DNA of 34,062 nucleotides from a virus: positions 1 to 34,062 of IMG/VR virus record IMGVR_UViG_3300017755_000035, one strand, 5' to 3'. The translations under genes were made by a program, and so were the position numbers. Shown piece after piece: positions 3,456-28,435 of this stretch (position 1 is the stretch's first letter; each line of letters starts with the position of its first letter). The notes below the pieces were generated by a model, which had not been told where the DNA came from, ran no database searches, and saw only the letters and a program-made list of their open reading frames with translations.

Positions 3456-4091
3456 ATGCAACTTGAATATGCTGAAATGATGAAATGGCTTCGTCACAAT
3501 CATTCATTTATGTTAGATCGTTGGATAGATTCTTTGCATCCAAACCAGATTAAGTGTAAAGAGTGGCTGGTTTATGAAGGTTTACCAAACGTTCAGATTC
3601 CGAGAGATGAGAACGGAAAGTTTCGTGTAGAAATCATTGGTGGATGGTATGGGTTTCCTCTTATTCAATTTCTAATGGATGAGTGGAATATTCAAATTCG
3701 TGAGATCGATATTTTTGAGATTGACTCATGGGCGTGTAAAATGATTTGGAAGTATTGTGATCTCTTTGGTTATGACAACGTACGTATTTTTAATCAGGAC
3801 TACTTTACTTATACAGAAAAAAGACGTACACATTTAGTAATAAATACTTCATGTGAGCATATGTGGAATATGAACACAACAAAAGAGTATTATGAAGAAC
3901 CTGAGCGTACTCTTTTAGCTCTACAGTCAAATGACAAGACAAACGAACCAGACCATATTAACTGTGTCAAGACCGGTCAAGAGCTCGCAGCTCAGGCTGA
4001 TGTCAAAGAACTCTATGGTGGTAAGAAGAGATTTAATGAAGGTACTCCAGATCAATATACGAGGTACATGATACTCGGCAAATGGAAATAA
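3456..4091 (+). CDS. Class I SAM-dependent methyltransferase-like protein
   Basis: 211 residues behind a strong Shine-Dalgarno (GGAGGG, 8 bases before ATG). The order of elements fits a Rossmann-fold methyltransferase: first strand and loop VEIIGGWYG (58-66), acidic end of the second strand IDIFEID (84-90), a QDY segment (114-116) and LVINTSCEHMW (127-137) as the fourth-strand region. The acceptor is unknown. It is the first gene after the early promoter at 3397, and its last 10 bases overlap the radical SAM gene. The overlap AAATGGAAATA, giving KWK-stop/MEI, is repeated at the next two junctions. The shorter protein just upstream is a reduced relative. Function is inferred from fold pattern only. 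Confidence 0.65.
   Translation: MQLEYAEMMKWLRHNHSFMLDRWIDSLHPNQIKCKEWLVYEGLPNVQIPRDENGKFRVEIIGGWYGFPLIQFLMDEWNIQIREIDIFEIDSWACKMIWKYCDLFGYDNVRIFNQDYFTYTEKRRTHLVINTSCEHMWNMNTTKEYYEEPERTLLALQSNDKTNEPDHINCVKTGQELAAQADVKELYGGKKRFNEGTPDQYTRYMILGKWK
4080..4090 (+). repeat. Repeated start/stop junction AAATGGAAATA (copy 1)
   Basis: Bases AAATGGAAATA encode KWK-stop of the methyltransferase in one frame and MEI of the radical SAM protein in another. Identical copies at 4958-4968 and 5872-5882 join the next genes. Confidence 0.9.
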
Positions 4092-4969
4092 TTAACTCAA
4101 ATCCAGATTGCTGTATTGTCTCGTTGTTTGTCCATAATGTCTGCAATTTTAATTGTAGCTATTGTAGTGATGAACATCGCGATGGGTCGTACCGTTGGCC
4201 TACTAAGTGGGATGGATACCTTGATCTAATTGACGAGATCAAAGAAAAAAAGAAATATGTGTATGTTCAGATTCTCGGTGGTGAGCCAACTTTATGGCCA
4301 AAGTTTCATGACTTTATAGATTATATTAGTGATGATCGTACGTACATTGAATACGCTACTAATGGAAGTAGAACAAAGCGGTACTGGGAAAGCTTACCAA
4401 AACATACAGCAACTGCTCTCTTTAGTTGGCACCATGAAGAAGCAGATGACGACCATTACCTTGATGTTCTCGAGATCATGCAAGACAAAGCTATGTGTGT
4501 GGCTACATTCTTATTGACTCCAGATAATTACGAAAGAGGACAAGCACTATACCATAGAATAGTAGAAAAAAAATTAAGAGTAGAAGCAATTCCAAAGTTT
4601 ACTCGAGTCGTGATCGACGGACCTGACTATTTTGAATATACTGATGAACAGAAAAAATGGATTCAATCTCATTATTGGAATAATACTCAATCAGGTCCAA
4701 ACTTTGTTTTACCACTCGAGTGTAGTGCCGGCAAATTATCAGAAATGATAGCATCAGAAAACTATTGGTTTCAAGGGTGGAAATGTAATGCTGGCCTTGA
4801 TAGAATTTATGTACACACCAATGGCGAAATATGGCGATGCACAAAACAAGTAGGTGGTAGCTTAGGAAATATTAATACGTATTTTGAGCTTCCGAAAGAT
4901 CCGATCATTTGTGATACTCATAAACCTTGTACCTGTCGGCTTGAAACTATACTAACTAAATGGAAATAG
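4082..4969 (+). CDS. Radical SAM protein with C-terminal SPASM-like cysteines (tandem copy 1)
   Basis: 295 residues. CxxxCxxC is at C21, C25 and C28 (CNFNCSYC) and GGEP at 66-69. A C-terminal Cys set (GWKC, then WRC, then CDTHKPCTC) looks like a SPASM/twitch auxiliary cluster domain in the usual position, unlike the minus-strand pair, whose extra cysteines come first. The ATNGSRTxRYW and FSWHxExADDDH segments are shared with the next gene, a clear tandem paralogue. It begins inside the last codons of the methyltransferase and ends inside the first codons of its paralogue. It should bind SAM and iron-sulphur clusters in the cytoplasm; the substrate is unknown. Confidence 0.9.
   Translation: MEIINSNPDCCIVSLFVHNVCNFNCSYCSDEHRDGSYRWPTKWDGYLDLIDEIKEKKKYVYVQILGGEPTLWPKFHDFIDYISDDRTYIEYATNGSRTKRYWESLPKHTATALFSWHHEEADDDHYLDVLEIMQDKAMCVATFLLTPDNYERGQALYHRIVEKKLRVEAIPKFTRVVIDGPDYFEYTDEQKKWIQSHYWNNTQSGPNFVLPLECSAGKLSEMIASENYWFQGWKCNAGLDRIYVHTNGEIWRCTKQVGGSLGNINTYFELPKDPIICDTHKPCTCRLETILTKWK
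4958..4968 (+). repeat. Repeated start/stop junction AAATGGAAATA (copy 2)
   Basis: The second copy joins the two tandem radical SAM genes; stop TAG at 4967-4969, start ATG at 4960. Confidence 0.9.
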
Positions 4970-5883
4970 ATAATCGTATGAGAATTACAAACAACAATCC
5001 AGATTGCGGCATTGTAAATATCATGCTTCATGACGTGTGTAATTATAAGTGTAGCTATTGTCATCCATATCATTATGGCGGAAAAAACAGATGGCCAGCT
5101 GACTGGGAAAACTATGTAGATCTTCTCAACGACTTTGAAAAGAATAATGAGTATATGTTAGTATCCTTGTTAGGTGGTGAACCAACACTCATGCCAAAGT
5201 TTGACGAATTCTGTAAAAAGATTAACTCTCCAAATAGAATTATTGAAATTTGTACAAATGGAAGTCGCACTTTACGATATTGGAATCAATGGCCTGAAGA
5301 TCTTAATGCTTACATTGTATTCAGTTGGCATTATGAGTTTGCTGACGATGATCATTTCTTTGACGTAATTCAAGCAATGCAATCAAAAGGAGAGATTGTC
5401 GCTAATTTACAAGTGACTCCTGAAAATTTCGATAGAGCTCAAAAGTTAGTTGAAAGAATTATAGAAAGTAAAGCTACTGTTGATGTGAATGCTAAATTGA
5501 CTCGAGTAAGTATTCAAGGCGATGGTAAACTAATGGATTATAGTCCTGAACAAATTAAGTGGATCACTCAATCGAGAGAGAAAAGATGCTTGCCATTAAA
5601 AGTTAACTGGCCGTATCCTTGGAAAATCTATATCGATGGAGAAGAACGAGCTCATCCTGATATGATCGCTAACAAAGAAGTAGATTTCCGTGGATGGAAA
5701 TGTATGGCTGGTATTAAAAGCCTATCTGTTGAAGCAGATGGTACTATTCGAAGATGTTGTGCTGGAGCTGACTTGCCACTTGGAAACGTTAATACAGTGT
5801 GGAGATTACCGGCTGATCCGTATACTTGTGATATTATTTCTTGTCATTGTAAACTCGACACGATGGTTGAAAAATGGAAATAG
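4960..5883 (+). CDS. Radical SAM protein with C-terminal SPASM-like cysteines (tandem copy 2)
   Basis: 307 residues. CxxxCxxC is at C27, C31 and C34 (CNYKCSYC) and GGEP at 72-75. The C-terminal cysteines (GWKCMAG, RRCCAG, CDIISCHC) correspond to those of the preceding paralogue. The start at 4960 lies in the repeated junction; a second ATG six codons on (MRIT) gives an N-terminus that lines up better with the paralogue's NSNPDC and is a real alternative. Between the core and the C-terminal cysteines it differs most from its partner, which may reflect a different substrate. It ends in KWK-stop overlapping the glycosyltransferase start. Class is certain from motifs, function unknown. Confidence 0.9.
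   Translation: MEIDNRMRITNNNPDCGIVNIMLHDVCNYKCSYCHPYHYGGKNRWPADWENYVDLLNDFEKNNEYMLVSLLGGEPTLMPKFDEFCKKINSPNRIIEICTNGSRTLRYWNQWPEDLNAYIVFSWHYEFADDDHFFDVIQAMQSKGEIVANLQVTPENFDRAQKLVERIIESKATVDVNAKLTRVSIQGDGKLMDYSPEQIKWITQSREKRCLPLKVNWPYPWKIYIDGEERAHPDMIANKEVDFRGWKCMAGIKSLSVEADGTIRRCCAGADLPLGNVNTVWRLPADPYTCDIISCHCKLDTMVEKWK
5872..5882 (+). repeat. Repeated start/stop junction AAATGGAAATA (copy 3)
   Basis: The third copy joins the second tandem radical SAM gene to the glycosyltransferase-like gene; start ATG at 5874, stop TAG at 5881-5883. Confidence 0.9.
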
Positions 5884-24159: not shown

Positions 24160-24657
24160 ATGGCCTATTCTGGAAGATACACTGTAGAGAATAAAAAGAA
24201 GTACGCTGGTGATCCAAACAACGTAGTATATAGATCGTTGTGGGAAAGAGACACATTTAAATGGCTCGACAGAAATCCAAAAGTAAAGAAGTGGTCATCC
24301 GAAGAGATTGTGATTCCATACTACTATGACGTCGATAAAAAGTATCACCGCTATTTCCCCGATATCAAGATTGTCTTTGAAAACAAAACAGTCCTCGTCG
24401 AAATCAAGCCAGCAAAAGAAACAGCCCCGCCCAAGAAAACCGGAAAAAACCAAAGGCAATACATAAATGAGGCAGTCACTTATGTAAAGAATATGAATAA
24501 GTGGGAAGCTGCTCAATCGTTTTGTAAAGATCGTAAATGGGAGTTTCAAATCTGGACCGAAGAAACATTAACGTCAATGGGGATTATGTCTAAACCCTTG
24601 AAGAAAGTTCCCGGTAAATTAAAGCCGTTGAAGCCTTATAAAAGACGCAAGAAATAG
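24160..24657 (+). CDS. gp4: Head completion protein gp4
   Basis: 165 residues against 150 in T4. The sequence around YRSLWERDTFKWLDRNPKVKKWSSE (24-48) and YHRYFPDIKI (62-71) is the T4 gp4 head-completion pattern. It includes a nuclease-like PD...ExK arrangement with E29, D68, E81 and K83 (EIKPAKE). gp4 is needed to finish filled heads before tail joining in T4. The C-terminus is Lys/Pro-rich. First gene of the plus-strand tail block; an internal TATAAATA-like box starts at its last codons. Confidence 0.9.
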   Translation: MAYSGRYTVENKKKYAGDPNNVVYRSLWERDTFKWLDRNPKVKKWSSEEIVIPYYYDVDKKYHRYFPDIKIVFENKTVLVEIKPAKETAPPKKTGKNQRQYINEAVTYVKNMNKWEAAQSFCKDRKWEFQIWTEETLTSMGIMSKPLKKVPGKLKPLKPYKRRKK

Positions 24658-24671: not shown

Positions 24672-25241
24672 ATGGCAGGAGAAAGTTTATTTAGAGAACT
24701 CGAGATTGAAGCGTTCCGCGCTGGTATTACACCCCGGACAAAGCAATCTATTGAGTGGTTTCGGAACAAAGCACGCGAAATGTTCCGAGGCAGAACCGTC
24801 GGTAACCGCAATAAGATTATGCAAGACGATGCATTAGATCTTAGGAATAAACCGATAACTAAAACTGGATTGCTTGGAAATATGTACATGTACTTCTATG
24901 ATCCAAAGCATAAAGACACTCTACCATATTATGATGGATTTCCTCTGATCATTATGATGGGCCCGGCAAAAGGTGGATTCTATGGATTGAATCTACATTA
25001 TTTGCCACCAACTCTCAGAGCCAAACTTCTTGACGTAATACTAGGAAATGATAACGCAAAAATTCCACAGAAATATATTGCACCAGCAATGAAGCATTAT
25101 TTGTTCAAACATGTCAAAAGCAGATTTGCTCTAGTTGACAAACCTGAATGGGAAATCGCTACATTCCTTCCAATGGCAGATTGGAATAAAGCAAGTGCTA
25201 ATTCAGTTTATAGAGATTCGAGGAAGAAGTTAAGAGGATGA
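24672..25241 (+). CDS. Conserved T4-like assembly protein, possibly gp2 (DNA end protector)
   Basis: 189 residues. Conserved-looking segments are MAGESLFRELEIEAFRAGI, MYMYFYDPKHKDTLPYYDGFPL (about 71-92) and GPAKGGFYGLNLHYLPP (about 97-113). In T4, gene 2 lies next to gene 4, as this gene does here, and I have a recollection of similar marine-phage proteins being annotated as DNA end protector. I cannot establish that from sequence, so no symbol is given. No clear ribosome site precedes the ATG; it follows the gp4 stop by 14 bases. It ends in an ATGA overlap with the tail-tube-fold gene. Confidence 0.6.
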   Translation: MAGESLFRELEIEAFRAGITPRTKQSIEWFRNKAREMFRGRTVGNRNKIMQDDALDLRNKPITKTGLLGNMYMYFYDPKHKDTLPYYDGFPLIIMMGPAKGGFYGLNLHYLPPTLRAKLLDVILGNDNAKIPQKYIAPAMKHYLFKHVKSRFALVDKPEWEIATFLPMADWNKASANSVYRDSRKKLRG

Positions 25242-25867
25242 GCAGCGTAGACACATTAAAATTAGCTATCACTGCTGGACTAGGACTGGCTCGTACAAAC
25301 AAGTTCATGGTTAGTTTACCATCAATTGGCGGTGGCACCGGAGTACTTGGAGCAATCACAGGTGCTCTTGGTTCAGCACAACGAAATATTCTTTGTACAA
25401 ACGCAACTCTTCCGGGTAAACAAATGTTGACTCATGAACGTCGAGTTGGTATCGAACAGCAAAAAGTAATGTATGGTTATGCTATGGATGATGTGACTCT
25501 TCAATTCATGGAGACTTCAACACTTCCGATTCGTAATTATTTTGAAAGCTGGATTGCAACAATGCATGATACTTCTCCCGGAAATCAGGACAAGAACGTT
25601 GTCAATTATCCGACTGAATATAAGAAGAGAGTTACCATTCACCAATTAGCAAACCCTATTCCATTTGGTCGTATATCTCTACCACTTGGAATGAATCCGC
25701 AGATTTCAACTTATTCTTGTGCGCTAGTTGACGCATTTCCGACAACATTGAGTCAAATTGACTATAGTAATGATCAAGACGGATTTGTAACATTCAGTGT
25801 TACGATGTCTTATAGATTTTGGGAAAGAGTACCAGCTGGTCAGCTTTCTCTTGGATATGGCCTTTAA
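25238..25867 (+). CDS. Tail-tube-fold protein, probably gp54-like tube initiator
   Basis: 209 residues. ARTNKFMVSLP (18-28), NATLPGKQM (54-62), YGYAMDDVTLQFMETSTLPIRNYFESW and VTFSVTMSYRFWE form the pattern of the gp19/gp54 tube family, in which a sandwich domain stacks as hexamers. T4 gp54 (320) starts the tube on gp48 and gp19 (163) builds it. The place next to gp26 and the tape measure protein, rather than next to the sheath gene, favours gp54, but gp19 is not excluded. It starts in an ATGA overlap with the preceding gene. Confidence 0.72.
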   Translation: MSSVDTLKLAITAGLGLARTNKFMVSLPSIGGGTGVLGAITGALGSAQRNILCTNATLPGKQMLTHERRVGIEQQKVMYGYAMDDVTLQFMETSTLPIRNYFESWIATMHDTSPGNQDKNVVNYPTEYKKRVTIHQLANPIPFGRISLPLGMNPQISTYSCALVDAFPTTLSQIDYSNDQDGFVTFSVTMSYRFWERVPAGQLSLGYGL

Positions 25868-25877
25868 GGAGTAAATT

Positions 25878-26591
25878 ATGGCACTACCGCGACTAAATGA
25901 TGTACCTGAGTATGAATTGACGGTACCTTCGACTGGACACTCTGTTGGCTTCAGGCCATTCTTAGTAAAAGAACAGAAAGTCCTTATGATTTCATATGAA
26001 TCAAAAGACGTAAAACAAATTTTAAAAGCAGTTTTGAATTGTATTCAAGCGTGTGTTAAAAATATTGATGTTGGTAAATTAGCAACATTCGATGTTGATT
26101 ATATCTTTACACAGATCCGATCAAAGTCTGTTGGTGAAACTAACGATGTTATCATGAAGTGTACAAACTGTGGTCATGAAAATAAGCTAACTATCAATTT
26201 AAATGAAATCAATATTGATGTTGAAAAGAAAGATATGACTATCGAGCTCAATGACACATATACATTGAAAATGAAATATCCTACTTACACTGACATCATT
26301 GGTGATAGAGTTCTATTAAACGATAAACGTACTCAGACTGAACAATTACTTGCTACACTTCGTAATTGTATGGAAGCAATTCAGACTGAGGAAGAAAATG
26401 TTATATTAAAAGATGAAACAATTGAAGAGATCGATGATTTTATTTCGTCATTGAATGATGAACAATACGGAAAGATTGCAGACTTTGTTTCTAATGTACC
26501 ATCGATGAAATACCAAAAGAAATTCAATTGTGAAAAATGCGAAAAAGAAAACACATTAGTAGTGGAGGGACTGCAAGATTTTTTTTCATAA
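25878..26591 (+). CDS. gp26: Baseplate hub protein gp26 (zero-frame product)
   Basis: 237 residues against 208 in T4. It starts 7 bases after AAGGAG. The T4 baseplate hub-assembly family pattern is seen in the N-terminus (ELTVPSTGHSVGFRPFLVKEQKVLM, 13-37). Two CxxC pairs (C95/C98 and C218/C221) could make a zinc ribbon joining the middle and the C-terminal end. The last codons CAA GAT TTT TTT TCA TAA contain a run of eight T, and the next reading frame in -1 continues with a conserved-looking 57-residue extension. gp26 is an assembly factor of the hub; T4 gene 51 follows gene 26, as here. Confidence 0.88.
   Translation: MALPRLNDVPEYELTVPSTGHSVGFRPFLVKEQKVLMISYESKDVKQILKAVLNCIQACVKNIDVGKLATFDVDYIFTQIRSKSVGETNDVIMKCTNCGHENKLTINLNEINIDVEKKDMTIELNDTYTLKMKYPTYTDIIGDRVLLNDKRTQTEQLLATLRNCMEAIQTEEENVILKDETIEEIDDFISSLNDEQYGKIADFVSNVPSMKYQKKFNCEKCEKENTLVVEGLQDFFS
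26564..26586 (+). promoter_or_regulatory. Programmed -1 frameshift site: SD-like GGAGGG plus T8 slippery run
   Basis: GGAGGG (26564-26569), then 9 bases, then T-TTT-TTT in the zero frame (26579-26585) followed by another T. A -1 slip moves from gp26 into the frame that reads FINLSHDTLENYY. An SD-like element about 10 bases upstream of the slip site is the arrangement that stimulates -1 frameshifting in dnaX of E. coli. No strong downstream hairpin is visible. Confidence 0.7.
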
Positions 26592-26758
26592 ACCTTTCTC
26601 ATGATACTCTAGAAAATTATTATCAAACCAATTTTTTATTAGCTCAAGAGCACCAATATTCGTTAACTGAACTTGATAATATGATACCGTGGGAGAGGGA
26701 AATCATAATCTATATGCTCATACAGCATATGAAAGAGAAGAATCAGCAGCAGCAATAG
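26585..26758 (+). CDS. gp51-position extension read by -1 frameshift from gp26
   Basis: 57 residues in the -1 frame from the slip site to TAG at 26756, giving a gp26 fusion of about 293 residues. The segment INLSHDTLENYYQTNFLLAQ and LTELDNMIPWEREI is protein-like and helical. The only in-frame ATG upstream (26537) lies inside gp26 with no ribosome site, and the conserved part begins exactly at the slip site. T4 gene 51, a hub assembly factor, holds the same position. In many phages a frameshifted chaperone lies directly before the tape measure gene, as here. Independent initiation at 26537 remains the alternative. Confidence 0.68.
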   Translation, partial: FINLSHDTLENYYQTNFLLAQEHQYSLTELDNMIPWEREIIIYMLIQHMKEKNQQQQ

Positions 26759-28435
26759 ATGGCAAATTTAAAAGCAGTAAATGAAACTCTATTATCGCAG
26801 AATGAAATTCTGAGAGATACTCAGAAGTCTGTTCTTTCGACGAATAATCTATTGTCTAAAACTCTAGAATCTCAACTTAAAGCTGCTTCAATGGCTAAGT
26901 TGAAAGATCTTGAGAAAGACAGAGAAGGCGGAAGATTTTCTCGAGTTGCTGGTGGATTAAGTGCTGCTGGTGGAGCTATTAAAGGTGGCGCAGAAAAAGG
27001 TTTAGGTAATATTCAAGGAATGCTTGGTAAAATAGGTAGTTTCTTGACACCTGCTGCTCTAATGGCTCTTCCCGGAATTCTTGCCGGTGTTCTTCTTAAA
27101 CGTGGTATTCCAGCTCTTGCAGTTGGCATCTTTGCTGATGAGATTGCAGGATTTTTGCTTGGTCCAGAAGCTTCTGCCGAGATGAAAAACCAAGTTACTC
27201 GAGCAATTCAAGGTGGTGCTCTTGGTTCTCTTCTTGGTAAAAAATTCGCTCTAATTGGTGCTGCGGCTGGATTCTTAATTGATGATGAAGTTGCGGCACA
27301 GTTATTAGAACTCGGTAAATCATTTGGTAATTTACTTGGTGCTGATATAGCAAACTTAGATGACCTTAAAGGTGTTATGCTGAGCATCGGCACTTTCCTT
27401 CGTGAAACTCTTAAAGGTGGTTTAGACGGAATTAACGATCTACTCAATGGGCGAATTGCTGAATTTTTTGGAATAGGCGAAGGTGAGAACAAAGTATTTA
27501 AGACTTTAGGTTTGATTGCTGGATTAGGATTAGTTCTAGCTCCGGGTGCTACTCTTGGAGCTATGGGATTCTTAGGAAAGAAAACACTAGGACTTGGGAT
27601 TAAGGCTTTAACACTTCTCTGGGGTAAAGTTCCAGCTGTTTTAAGAGGATTAGGATTATTGGGTACCGCAATTACCGCATCTGCTGGAGTCGGAACAGCA
27701 GGCGCGGCTGGAGCAGGTGCAGCAGCATCACGTGGCGGTACGTTATTAAAAATTGCTGGAGGCATGCTTAGGTTTGCTGGACCGCTTGGAGCTATTATTG
27801 GCATTGCAACGATAGGTTATGCAGTCGGTGAGTGGTTTAAAACTACTGAAATGTATAAAGATCTGGCCGAGGCTCAAAAGAAAAGAGAAGATGAGTCTGT
27901 TACATTTAATAAAGTTCAGCAGGCACAGTTAGATGCTGGAGCATCTCCAGAAGATGCAGCAACTGTTGCGCGCTTTGCCACTAACGCTGGGCAAGGGCAA
28001 GACTTTACTCTACAAGCAAAAAGTACAGACACCAAATTTAGAACTGGCGAGTTGATCGGCAGTGATACATTTATGGCGCGAGTAGCACAACTTGAAAAAT
28101 TTGAAAACCTGCAGGGTGCTGATAAGTTTGCTAAAACTTCAATGGGTAAAGAACTAGAAGAAAGAAGAGCAGCATTACTAGCTCTTCAAAATCGCGAAGC
28201 AGCAATGAAGGCACCAAAGCCAACATCTGGAGAAAGCCTTAGAAATGAAACTGCGCTTGGTAATGCACCACCCGGCCAACCAATGATTGTTGATGGATCT
28301 ACCAATACAACACAGAATATTGGTCAGTCAAATACTACGCTTTCTGCTCCACCACCAGCTGCTGGTCAAAGCGATGATTACTCAGGCGCACTCAATAGTC
28401 GTATGAATCTTTCTACGAGTGGATACCTGAACTAA
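26759..28435 (+). CDS. gp29: Tail tape measure protein, gp29-like
   Basis: 558 residues against 590 in T4 gp29. The first 60 residues form a polar helix/coil (ETLLSQNEILRDTQ). The middle (about 60-370) is Gly/Ala/Leu-rich with several hydrophobic segments (for example ALMALPGILAGVLL, LGLIAGLGLVLAPG, FAGPLGAIIGIATIGYAVG), as in tape measure proteins that enter the host membrane. The C-terminal 180 residues are polar with Pro/Gln/Asn-rich low complexity. The ATG abuts the stop of the frameshift extension with no good ribosome site, so translation may depend on ribosomes ending at 26758. Assignment by size, composition and position. Confidence 0.78.
   Translation: MANLKAVNETLLSQNEILRDTQKSVLSTNNLLSKTLESQLKAASMAKLKDLEKDREGGRFSRVAGGLSAAGGAIKGGAEKGLGNIQGMLGKIGSFLTPAALMALPGILAGVLLKRGIPALAVGIFADEIAGFLLGPEASAEMKNQVTRAIQGGALGSLLGKKFALIGAAAGFLIDDEVAAQLLELGKSFGNLLGADIANLDDLKGVMLSIGTFLRETLKGGLDGINDLLNGRIAEFFGIGEGENKVFKTLGLIAGLGLVLAPGATLGAMGFLGKKTLGLGIKALTLLWGKVPAVLRGLGLLGTAITASAGVGTAGAAGAGAAASRGGTLLKIAGGMLRFAGPLGAIIGIATIGYAVGEWFKTTEMYKDLAEAQKKREDESVTFNKVQQAQLDAGASPEDAATVARFATNAGQGQDFTLQAKSTDTKFRTGELIGSDTFMARVAQLEKFENLQGADKFAKTSMGKELEERRAALLALQNREAAMKAPKPTSGESLRNETALGNAPPGQPMIVDGSTNTTQNIGQSNTTLSAPPPAAGQSDDYSGALNSRMNLSTSGYLN

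Follow-up and report, generated by a model that had tools for sequence, protein, structure and literature searches.

A putative −1 frameshift site conserved in gp26-type tail assembly chaperone genes of T4-type phages, with an apparently undescribed long-range RNA stem

The stretch of DNA analysed here, referred to as the window, comprises the 34,062 nucleotides of the IMG/VR virus record IMGVR_UViG_3300017755_000035. A gp26-type gene follows a tail tube gene, and a second reading frame, shifted by −1, continues from the 3′-end of gp26 to an open reading frame (ORF) of 558 amino acids (Table 1). The match of gp26 to PF12322 is above the cut-off, and the long form adds a tail of the PHROG_634 type, which places both in this protein family; searched by itself, the tail hits PHROG_634 (3.2e-22) as well as the end of PHROG_150 (5.6e-07).

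Table 1. Features at the 3′-end of the gp26-type gene and next to it (positions in the window)
Feature	Position	Strand	Basis
Tail tube protein, upstream context	25238-25867	+	PHROG_45 4.4e-33
gp26-type gene for the short tail assembly chaperone (237 aa)	25878-26591	+	PF12322 4.2e-54, PHROG_150 3.5e-59
SD-like GGAGGG, 9 bases 5′ of heptamer	26564-26569	+	Sequence; anti-SD pairing test
Slippery heptamer T_TTT_TTT (putative)	26579-26585	+	Sequence, phase, conservation
Tail in the −1 frame (57 codons, then TAG), C-terminal end of the predicted long form	26585-26758	+	PHROG_634, PHROG_150
0-frame stop TAA, one codon past heptamer	26589-26591	+	Sequence
5′ arm of long-range stem, 7 bases past heptamer	26593-26603	+	120-base folding
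3′ arm of long-range stem	26688-26698	+	Pair probability, duplex energy
558-aa ORF at tape-measure position	26759-28435	+	Position

The gp26 gene ends with GAT (26577-26579) TTT (26580-26582) TTT (26583-26585) TCA TAA (26589-26591), and the run of eight T (26579-26586) contains T_TTT_TTT in the correct phase for a −1 slip. Reading after such a slip would continue from 26585 (F I N L S H ...) through 57 codons to 26755 and terminate at TAG (26756-26758), which abuts the next ATG at 26759 with zero gap. The computed fusion of gp26 and tail has 293 residues. A preliminary description of this DNA had proposed a likely programmed −1 frameshift at a T-TTT-TTT heptamer in the zero frame of gp26; its coordinates and counts, i.e. 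the eight T, the heptamer and its phase, the 57 codons, and the spacing of GGAGGG, were correct on recheck. Two trivial explanations were rejected. A chance heptamer is contradicted by the observation that gp26 contains the sole in-phase T_TTT_TTN among the 40 window ORFs taken as genes (10,778 codons), and a sequencing error by the repetition of the junction letters in seven IMG/VR loci (L002-L008).

The structure predicted for gp26 has a pLDDT of 87.5, and residues 1-94 of the model resemble three chains, namely the HK97 tail assembly chaperone (TAC) 2ob9 (residues 1-85) with a Z of 7.7, i.e. under 8, 3fgx (7.6), and YqbN 3klu (7.0), the latter two likewise chaperone-like proteins. The fourth row of the structure comparison drops to Z 4.3. 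A Foldseek search of the PDB with the model returned nothing at E ≤ 0.001, so that the likeness of the modelled N-terminal part to a chaperone fold is suggestive; a sequence search against solved structures gave chance-level matches only.

The tail had been described as lying directly before the tape measure gene. The ATG at 26759 indeed adjoins the tail stop, but the tape measure gene itself is placed by position only, and the 558-aa ORF matches no tape-measure profile in Pfam or PHROG. The ORF following the tail (next or next but one) has a tape-measure PHROG match in three of five phages, HTVC008M, phiM12, and Vibrio PVA23, and no such match in C48C1 and P-SSM2. BLASTP of the 558-aa ORF gave 2e-9 against C48C1 and no significant result against HTVC008M and phiM12. 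Elsewhere in the window, the head closure (gp4-type) protein encoded at 24160-24657 has an additional match, to the TnsA-like endonuclease N-terminal domain of Pfam (5.1e-17), and four ORFs at 2-2274 and 4082-5883 have cysteine motifs that, judged by eye, presumably resemble those of radical SAM enzymes.

Scans of viral contigs yielded 73 loci via gp26, and the best 80 of at least 600 matches were taken via the tail alone. A single in-phase heptamer with a −1 tail after it is present in 147 of the 153 loci among the matches listed; this matches the G/GT type, in which an overlapping −1 frame extends the short protein at its C-terminus. The remaining six loci are cut by contig ends, four inside gp26 and two in the tail, and the latter two also have the heptamer; it is present in all 80 loci found from the tail (the best 80 of at least 600 matches). 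Dereplication at ≤90% identity over 340 bases left 104 loci. The third base (N of T_TTT_TTN) is C in 53, T in 28, and A in 23 of them, and the 0-frame stop follows 0 or 1 codon past the heptamer in 100 of the 104. The base 5′ of the two Phe codons is T in 104/104 loci, compared with a gene-wide fraction of 0.61 (summed log10 P −24.8), and TTT serves as the first Phe codon in 104/104, compared with 0.72 (summed log10 P −16.1); these P values treat the loci as independent. Because the sites were located by six T, the conservation of T and TTT rests on every untruncated locus having T6. The site thus has the form X_XXY_YYZ in phase, and codon choice keeps T_TTT_TTN beyond the need for Phe-Phe in the 104 loci, so that conservation of Phe-Phe alone was rejected as an explanation.

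Further queries gave 82 loci, 80 with P-SSM2 (the best 80 among the matches listed) and two with Vibrio. The site was found in 80 of the 82, and the two loci without it stop 27 and 42 bases past the gp26 match. The named phages, hand-picked from the hit lists, contributed 28 loci, i.e. four with the T4 layout, nine of the Ackermannviridae type, and 15 others. In all 15 others, a −1 tail follows the heptamer (S-CAM1, C48C1, Melnitz-2, Vibrio PVA23, Vibrio TCU-VP04-AIR2, phiM12, ACP17, S-CRM01, HTVC008M, P-SSM2, Bhz51, pf16, Atu_ph04, Ah1, and Vibrio D527). The gp26 alignment took in two of 15 further loci, which are outside the junction counts. An alignment of gp26-region homologues had been suggested in the preliminary description as a check; it favours a programmed −1 frameshift, with heptamer, phase, 0-frame stop, and −1 tail all conserved.

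For the region upstream of the heptamer, the mean anti-SD pairing of the 104 loci is −6.2 kcal/mol, compared with −4.7 for synonymous codon draws (Wilcoxon P 1.7e-11) and −2.1 for other parts of the genes. Individually, a rank ≤ 0.05 is reached in just 27/104 loci. The GGAGGG of the window had been likened to the stimulatory element of dnaX, and its position was confirmed; the mean pairing exceeds what synonymous choice accounts for, but single loci are significant in about a quarter of the cases.

T4 represents a different layout. Both gp26 and gp51 of T4 match PF12322 end to end (8.8e-64 and 3.9e-52), and of the pair only gp51 extends into the tail (PHROG_150 to position 280; PHROG_634 1.2e-23), so that T4 has the short and the long form as two paralogous genes. 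They are on opposite strands and lack the heptamer; gp51 of Aes508, Makalu, and Thanatos-2 likewise extends into the tail. T4 had been described as having separate gp26 and gp51 genes, which is the case, but gp51 is a gp26 paralogue plus tail and not just the tail. Judged from the sequences, one frameshifted gene would do the job that T4 splits over two. Nine loci from Ackermannviridae or similar phages, including two Vibrio records without family, have the tail in the −1 frame, and the heptamer is absent in all nine. In four of these nine (L174-L182), the junction is TAATG, and Kuttervirus has TAATT at the same place. In the Ackermannviridae type, the tail is probably made via another route than the heptamer.

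Downstream of the heptamer, folding of 120 bases of the window gives an 11-bp pairing of the two arms listed in Table 1, with seven sampled pairs at probabilities of 0.98-1.0; this stem is absent from the preliminary description. The arm duplex has an energy of −17.2, compared with −6.5 for the synonymous null (rank 0.0005). Folds over 55 and 80 bases are unremarkable (z −0.12 and −1.13), and the fold over 120 bases, where the stem forms, has a z of −1.80. The stem starts 6-7 bases past the heptamer and closes over about 84 bases; in the clade of the window, it has 11-12 bp, drawn in part from silent bases of the conserved codons for LSH and PWER. Alignment of the 104 loci needs no gaps, and the distance between stem and heptamer is equal in all of them. 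Their mean arm duplex is −14.7, compared with −7.1 for the synonymous null (rank ≤ 0.05 in 73/104), and the mean peaks at the stem offset, with values of −2.3 to −5.6 at offsets away from it. By a stricter criterion, i.e. a duplex of at most −10 and a rank ≤ 0.05, 71 loci pass and 33 miss. A 3′ structure, which is optional in programmed −1 frameshifting, is thus present, and it may act as a stimulator. Rfam contains no match to window positions 26400-26900 up to E 1.

The helix was analysed as 12 pairs, columns 38-49 with 134-145 of alignment A2 (104 rows). The fraction of paired cells is 84.1%, compared with 40-64% when the arms are slid by 1 to 3 columns. Cells with double changes number 71, compared with 30.7 in shuffles, and the covariation score is 0.176, compared with 0.110 (0/500 shuffles each). 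Two of the five covariation measures are no better than shuffles, i.e. the number of pairs with a double change (4 vs 4.1) and the number of further pair types (17 vs 16.1), and RNAalifold predicted no pairs on the 104-row alignment. Two pairs of silent third bases covary. At 42-141 (Leu CTY with Glu GAR), TA occurs 49 times, CG 32, TG 5, and CA 3 (Fisher 1.4e-15), and at 39-144, CG occurs 56 times, TA 23, CA 7, and TG 0 (Fisher 4e-15); five control comparisons gave P values of 0.07 to 1. To allow for the relatedness of the loci, a tree was used to set dependent against independent evolution. Pagel tests gave LR 41.4 (P 2.2e-8) for 42-141 and LR 55.8 (P 2.2e-11) for 39-144, and P > 0.16 for six control column pairs. 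When co-changes were counted branch by branch, 42-141 came second among 2432 column pairs (8 vs 1.9 expected), and 39-144 is unremarkable (4 vs 2.7 expected), though its likelihood test is significant.

Among 14 isolates, the stem is significant in five (C48C1, Melnitz-2, Vibrio PVA23, D527, and weakly S-CRM01) and not in nine (S-CAM1, P-SSM2, phiM12, ACP17, HTVC008M, Bhz51, pf16, Atu_ph04, and Ah1). The Vibrio stem involves other residues and has a shifted register. In P-SSM2-type cyanophages, the long-range stem is absent and a local hairpin lies 5 bases past the TTTTTTC heptamer. We compared the first 20 tail codons of 25 representatives, 23 of the P-SSM2 type and two from Vibrio, with synonymous codons, and the z value of the downstream fold is below −2 in 24 of the 25. 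The hairpin is the best fold in 21/23 P-SSM2-type representatives (exceptions L240 and L254), and about half have it with one mismatch (12/23 at columns 35-49). Its covariation is weak because the hairpin hardly varies. In the P-SSM2-type loci (L184-L263), a tail-frame ATG close to where the tail begins (annotated as the start of gp51 in P-SSM2) is paired inside the hairpin. Strong downstream folding (z about −4) is also seen in pf16 (L170), Ah1 (L172), and S-CRM01 (L085), with architectures unlike the long-range stem. We consider it fairly probable that the chaperone sites of the T4 superfamily have lineage-specific 3′ RNA stimulators, i.e. the long-range stem, its shifted version in Vibrio Schizotequatrovirus, and the cyanophage hairpin.

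The stem could instead serve another end, such as protecting the mRNA or controlling when the next gene is translated, next to a frameshift that is real. Between the end of its 3′ arm and the next start codon lie 60 bases, ribosomes stopping at 26589 never read through it, and P-SSM2-type phages have the heptamer without it. However, the constant distance to the heptamer in 104/104 loci ties the stem to the shift site, and the stem goes undetected in the loci that lack the heptamer: its test was not significant for 8/8 Ackermannviridae-type loci (approximate register), nor for gp51 of T4, Aes508, and Thanatos-2, three of the four gp51 genes (Makalu gp51 was left out). Another function of the stem is therefore regarded as rather unlikely, and a role in frameshifting is preferred.

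No ATG, GTG, or TTG for the tail exists in 81/104 loci; in nine loci one is situated upstream in the gp26 overlap, and in 14 within the first six tail codons. The window (L002) has one ATG in the tail frame, at 26537 inside the gp26 overlap, and its near relative L009 has a tail-frame stop after the matching position. A −1 frame lacking a start codon had been named as supporting evidence, and this is the case for the 81 loci but not for the window itself. In all 25 P-SSM2/Vibrio representatives, a start codon lies in the overlap or among the first six codons of the tail. An early start, i.e. within the first six codons, goes with absence of the long-range stem, which is present in 4/14 loci with and 67/90 without an early start (Fisher 0.0013, uncorrected for relatedness).

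The tail might be a separate small protein, made by coupled reinitiation near the gp26 stop or from an upstream ATG such as that at 26537, with the T run merely encoding Phe-Phe. TAATG or TGATG overlaps in Vibrio Schizotequatrovirus, phiM12, S-CRM01, Bhz51, and Atu_ph04, and in 4/9 Ackermannviridae-type loci, would fit this, as would the separate short ORFs called by several annotators and the gp51 annotated in cyanophages. In the records examined, the long form is unannotated because the tail is shown as a separate, often late-starting ORF or is omitted. Against a separate tail stand the 81 loci without a start codon, the tail-frame stop of L009, the retention of T_TTT_TTN beyond the need for Phe-Phe, the pairing of the P-SSM2-type ATG in a hairpin, and T4 gp51, which is an in-frame fusion. 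An independent gp51 start was rejected as a general mechanism on the grounds of the 81 loci, and a separate tail protein appears improbable. Two situations named beforehand as evidence against a frameshift do occur, but in side branches: the T run is lost with both frames intact in the nine Ackermannviridae-type loci, and the P-SSM2 type has an ATG of its own in the downstream frame, with the T run kept. Transcriptional slippage on the T run, which has eight T in the window, is very improbable as the means of joining the frames, since 76/104 loci have just six T (third base C or A), the phase suits tandem tRNA slippage, and the stem begins 6-7 bases downstream.

Taken together, the locus very probably encodes both forms of a tail assembly chaperone of a marine T4-type myovirus in one gene, by means of a −1 slip presumably aided by the SD-like element and the stem. 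According to this sequence-based model, most ribosomes would stop at 26589 and produce the short gp26, and a minority would undergo a −1 slip of the two Phe-tRNAs on U_UUU_UUU and produce the fusion, the presumed counterpart of T4 gp51 and lambda gpGT. GGAGGG and the stem, which the ribosome would meet 6-7 bases past the heptamer, may promote the slip, and its efficiency would set the ratio of short to long form. Both forms may coat the tape measure protein and recruit the tail tube. The covarying stem is a directly testable cis-element that could help to find such sites. For RNA structure search, a helix that covaries at silent positions of the gene for a conserved protein is of interest as well.

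The preliminary description knew of no report of such a frameshift for T4-type gp26/gp51, but one probably exists. PMC5009743 describes G-T frameshifting as a widely conserved feature of long-tailed phages, with T4 as the exception. Vladimirov, Gautam & Davidson 2022 are cited for some T4-like phages using a short gene plus a longer fusion gene (PMC10885494, PRFect) and for poly-T signals in TAC-N genes of T4-like phages (PMC12846349). Going by these citing passages, the frameshift has probably already been described in kind, and the T4-type TAC-N/TAC-NC genes with poly-T shift signals are apparently the same genes as ours. The long-range stem appears to be new: a literature search, with most subscription papers outside its reach, yielded no long-range stem at a phage chaperone frameshift.

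Compared with known systems, lambda gpG/gpGT likewise has a short chaperone that is extended in the −1 frame ahead of the tape measure position (PMC5009743), but its slippery site is G_GGA_AAG (PMC7618472) instead of T_TTT_TTN, and the present site has a covarying 3′ stem. Pairs of the G/GT type are further characterised by a place between the tail tube and tape measure genes and by two forms that are required in a fixed proportion and are not part of the virion. T4 gp26/gp51 belong to the same family, and gp51 has the same C-terminal tail; they differ in being two paralogues on opposite strands without a heptamer. The TACs of the myoviruses Vandenendeviridae/Andersonviridae also use a −1 frameshift at a T-rich motif, which is GTTTTT rather than T_TTT_TTN, and the relevant passage of PMC12846349 mentions no stem. 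The dnaX-type signal also combines an SD-like element and a 3′ stem around the shift site (PMC5009743), whereas the stem described here closes over about 84 bases.
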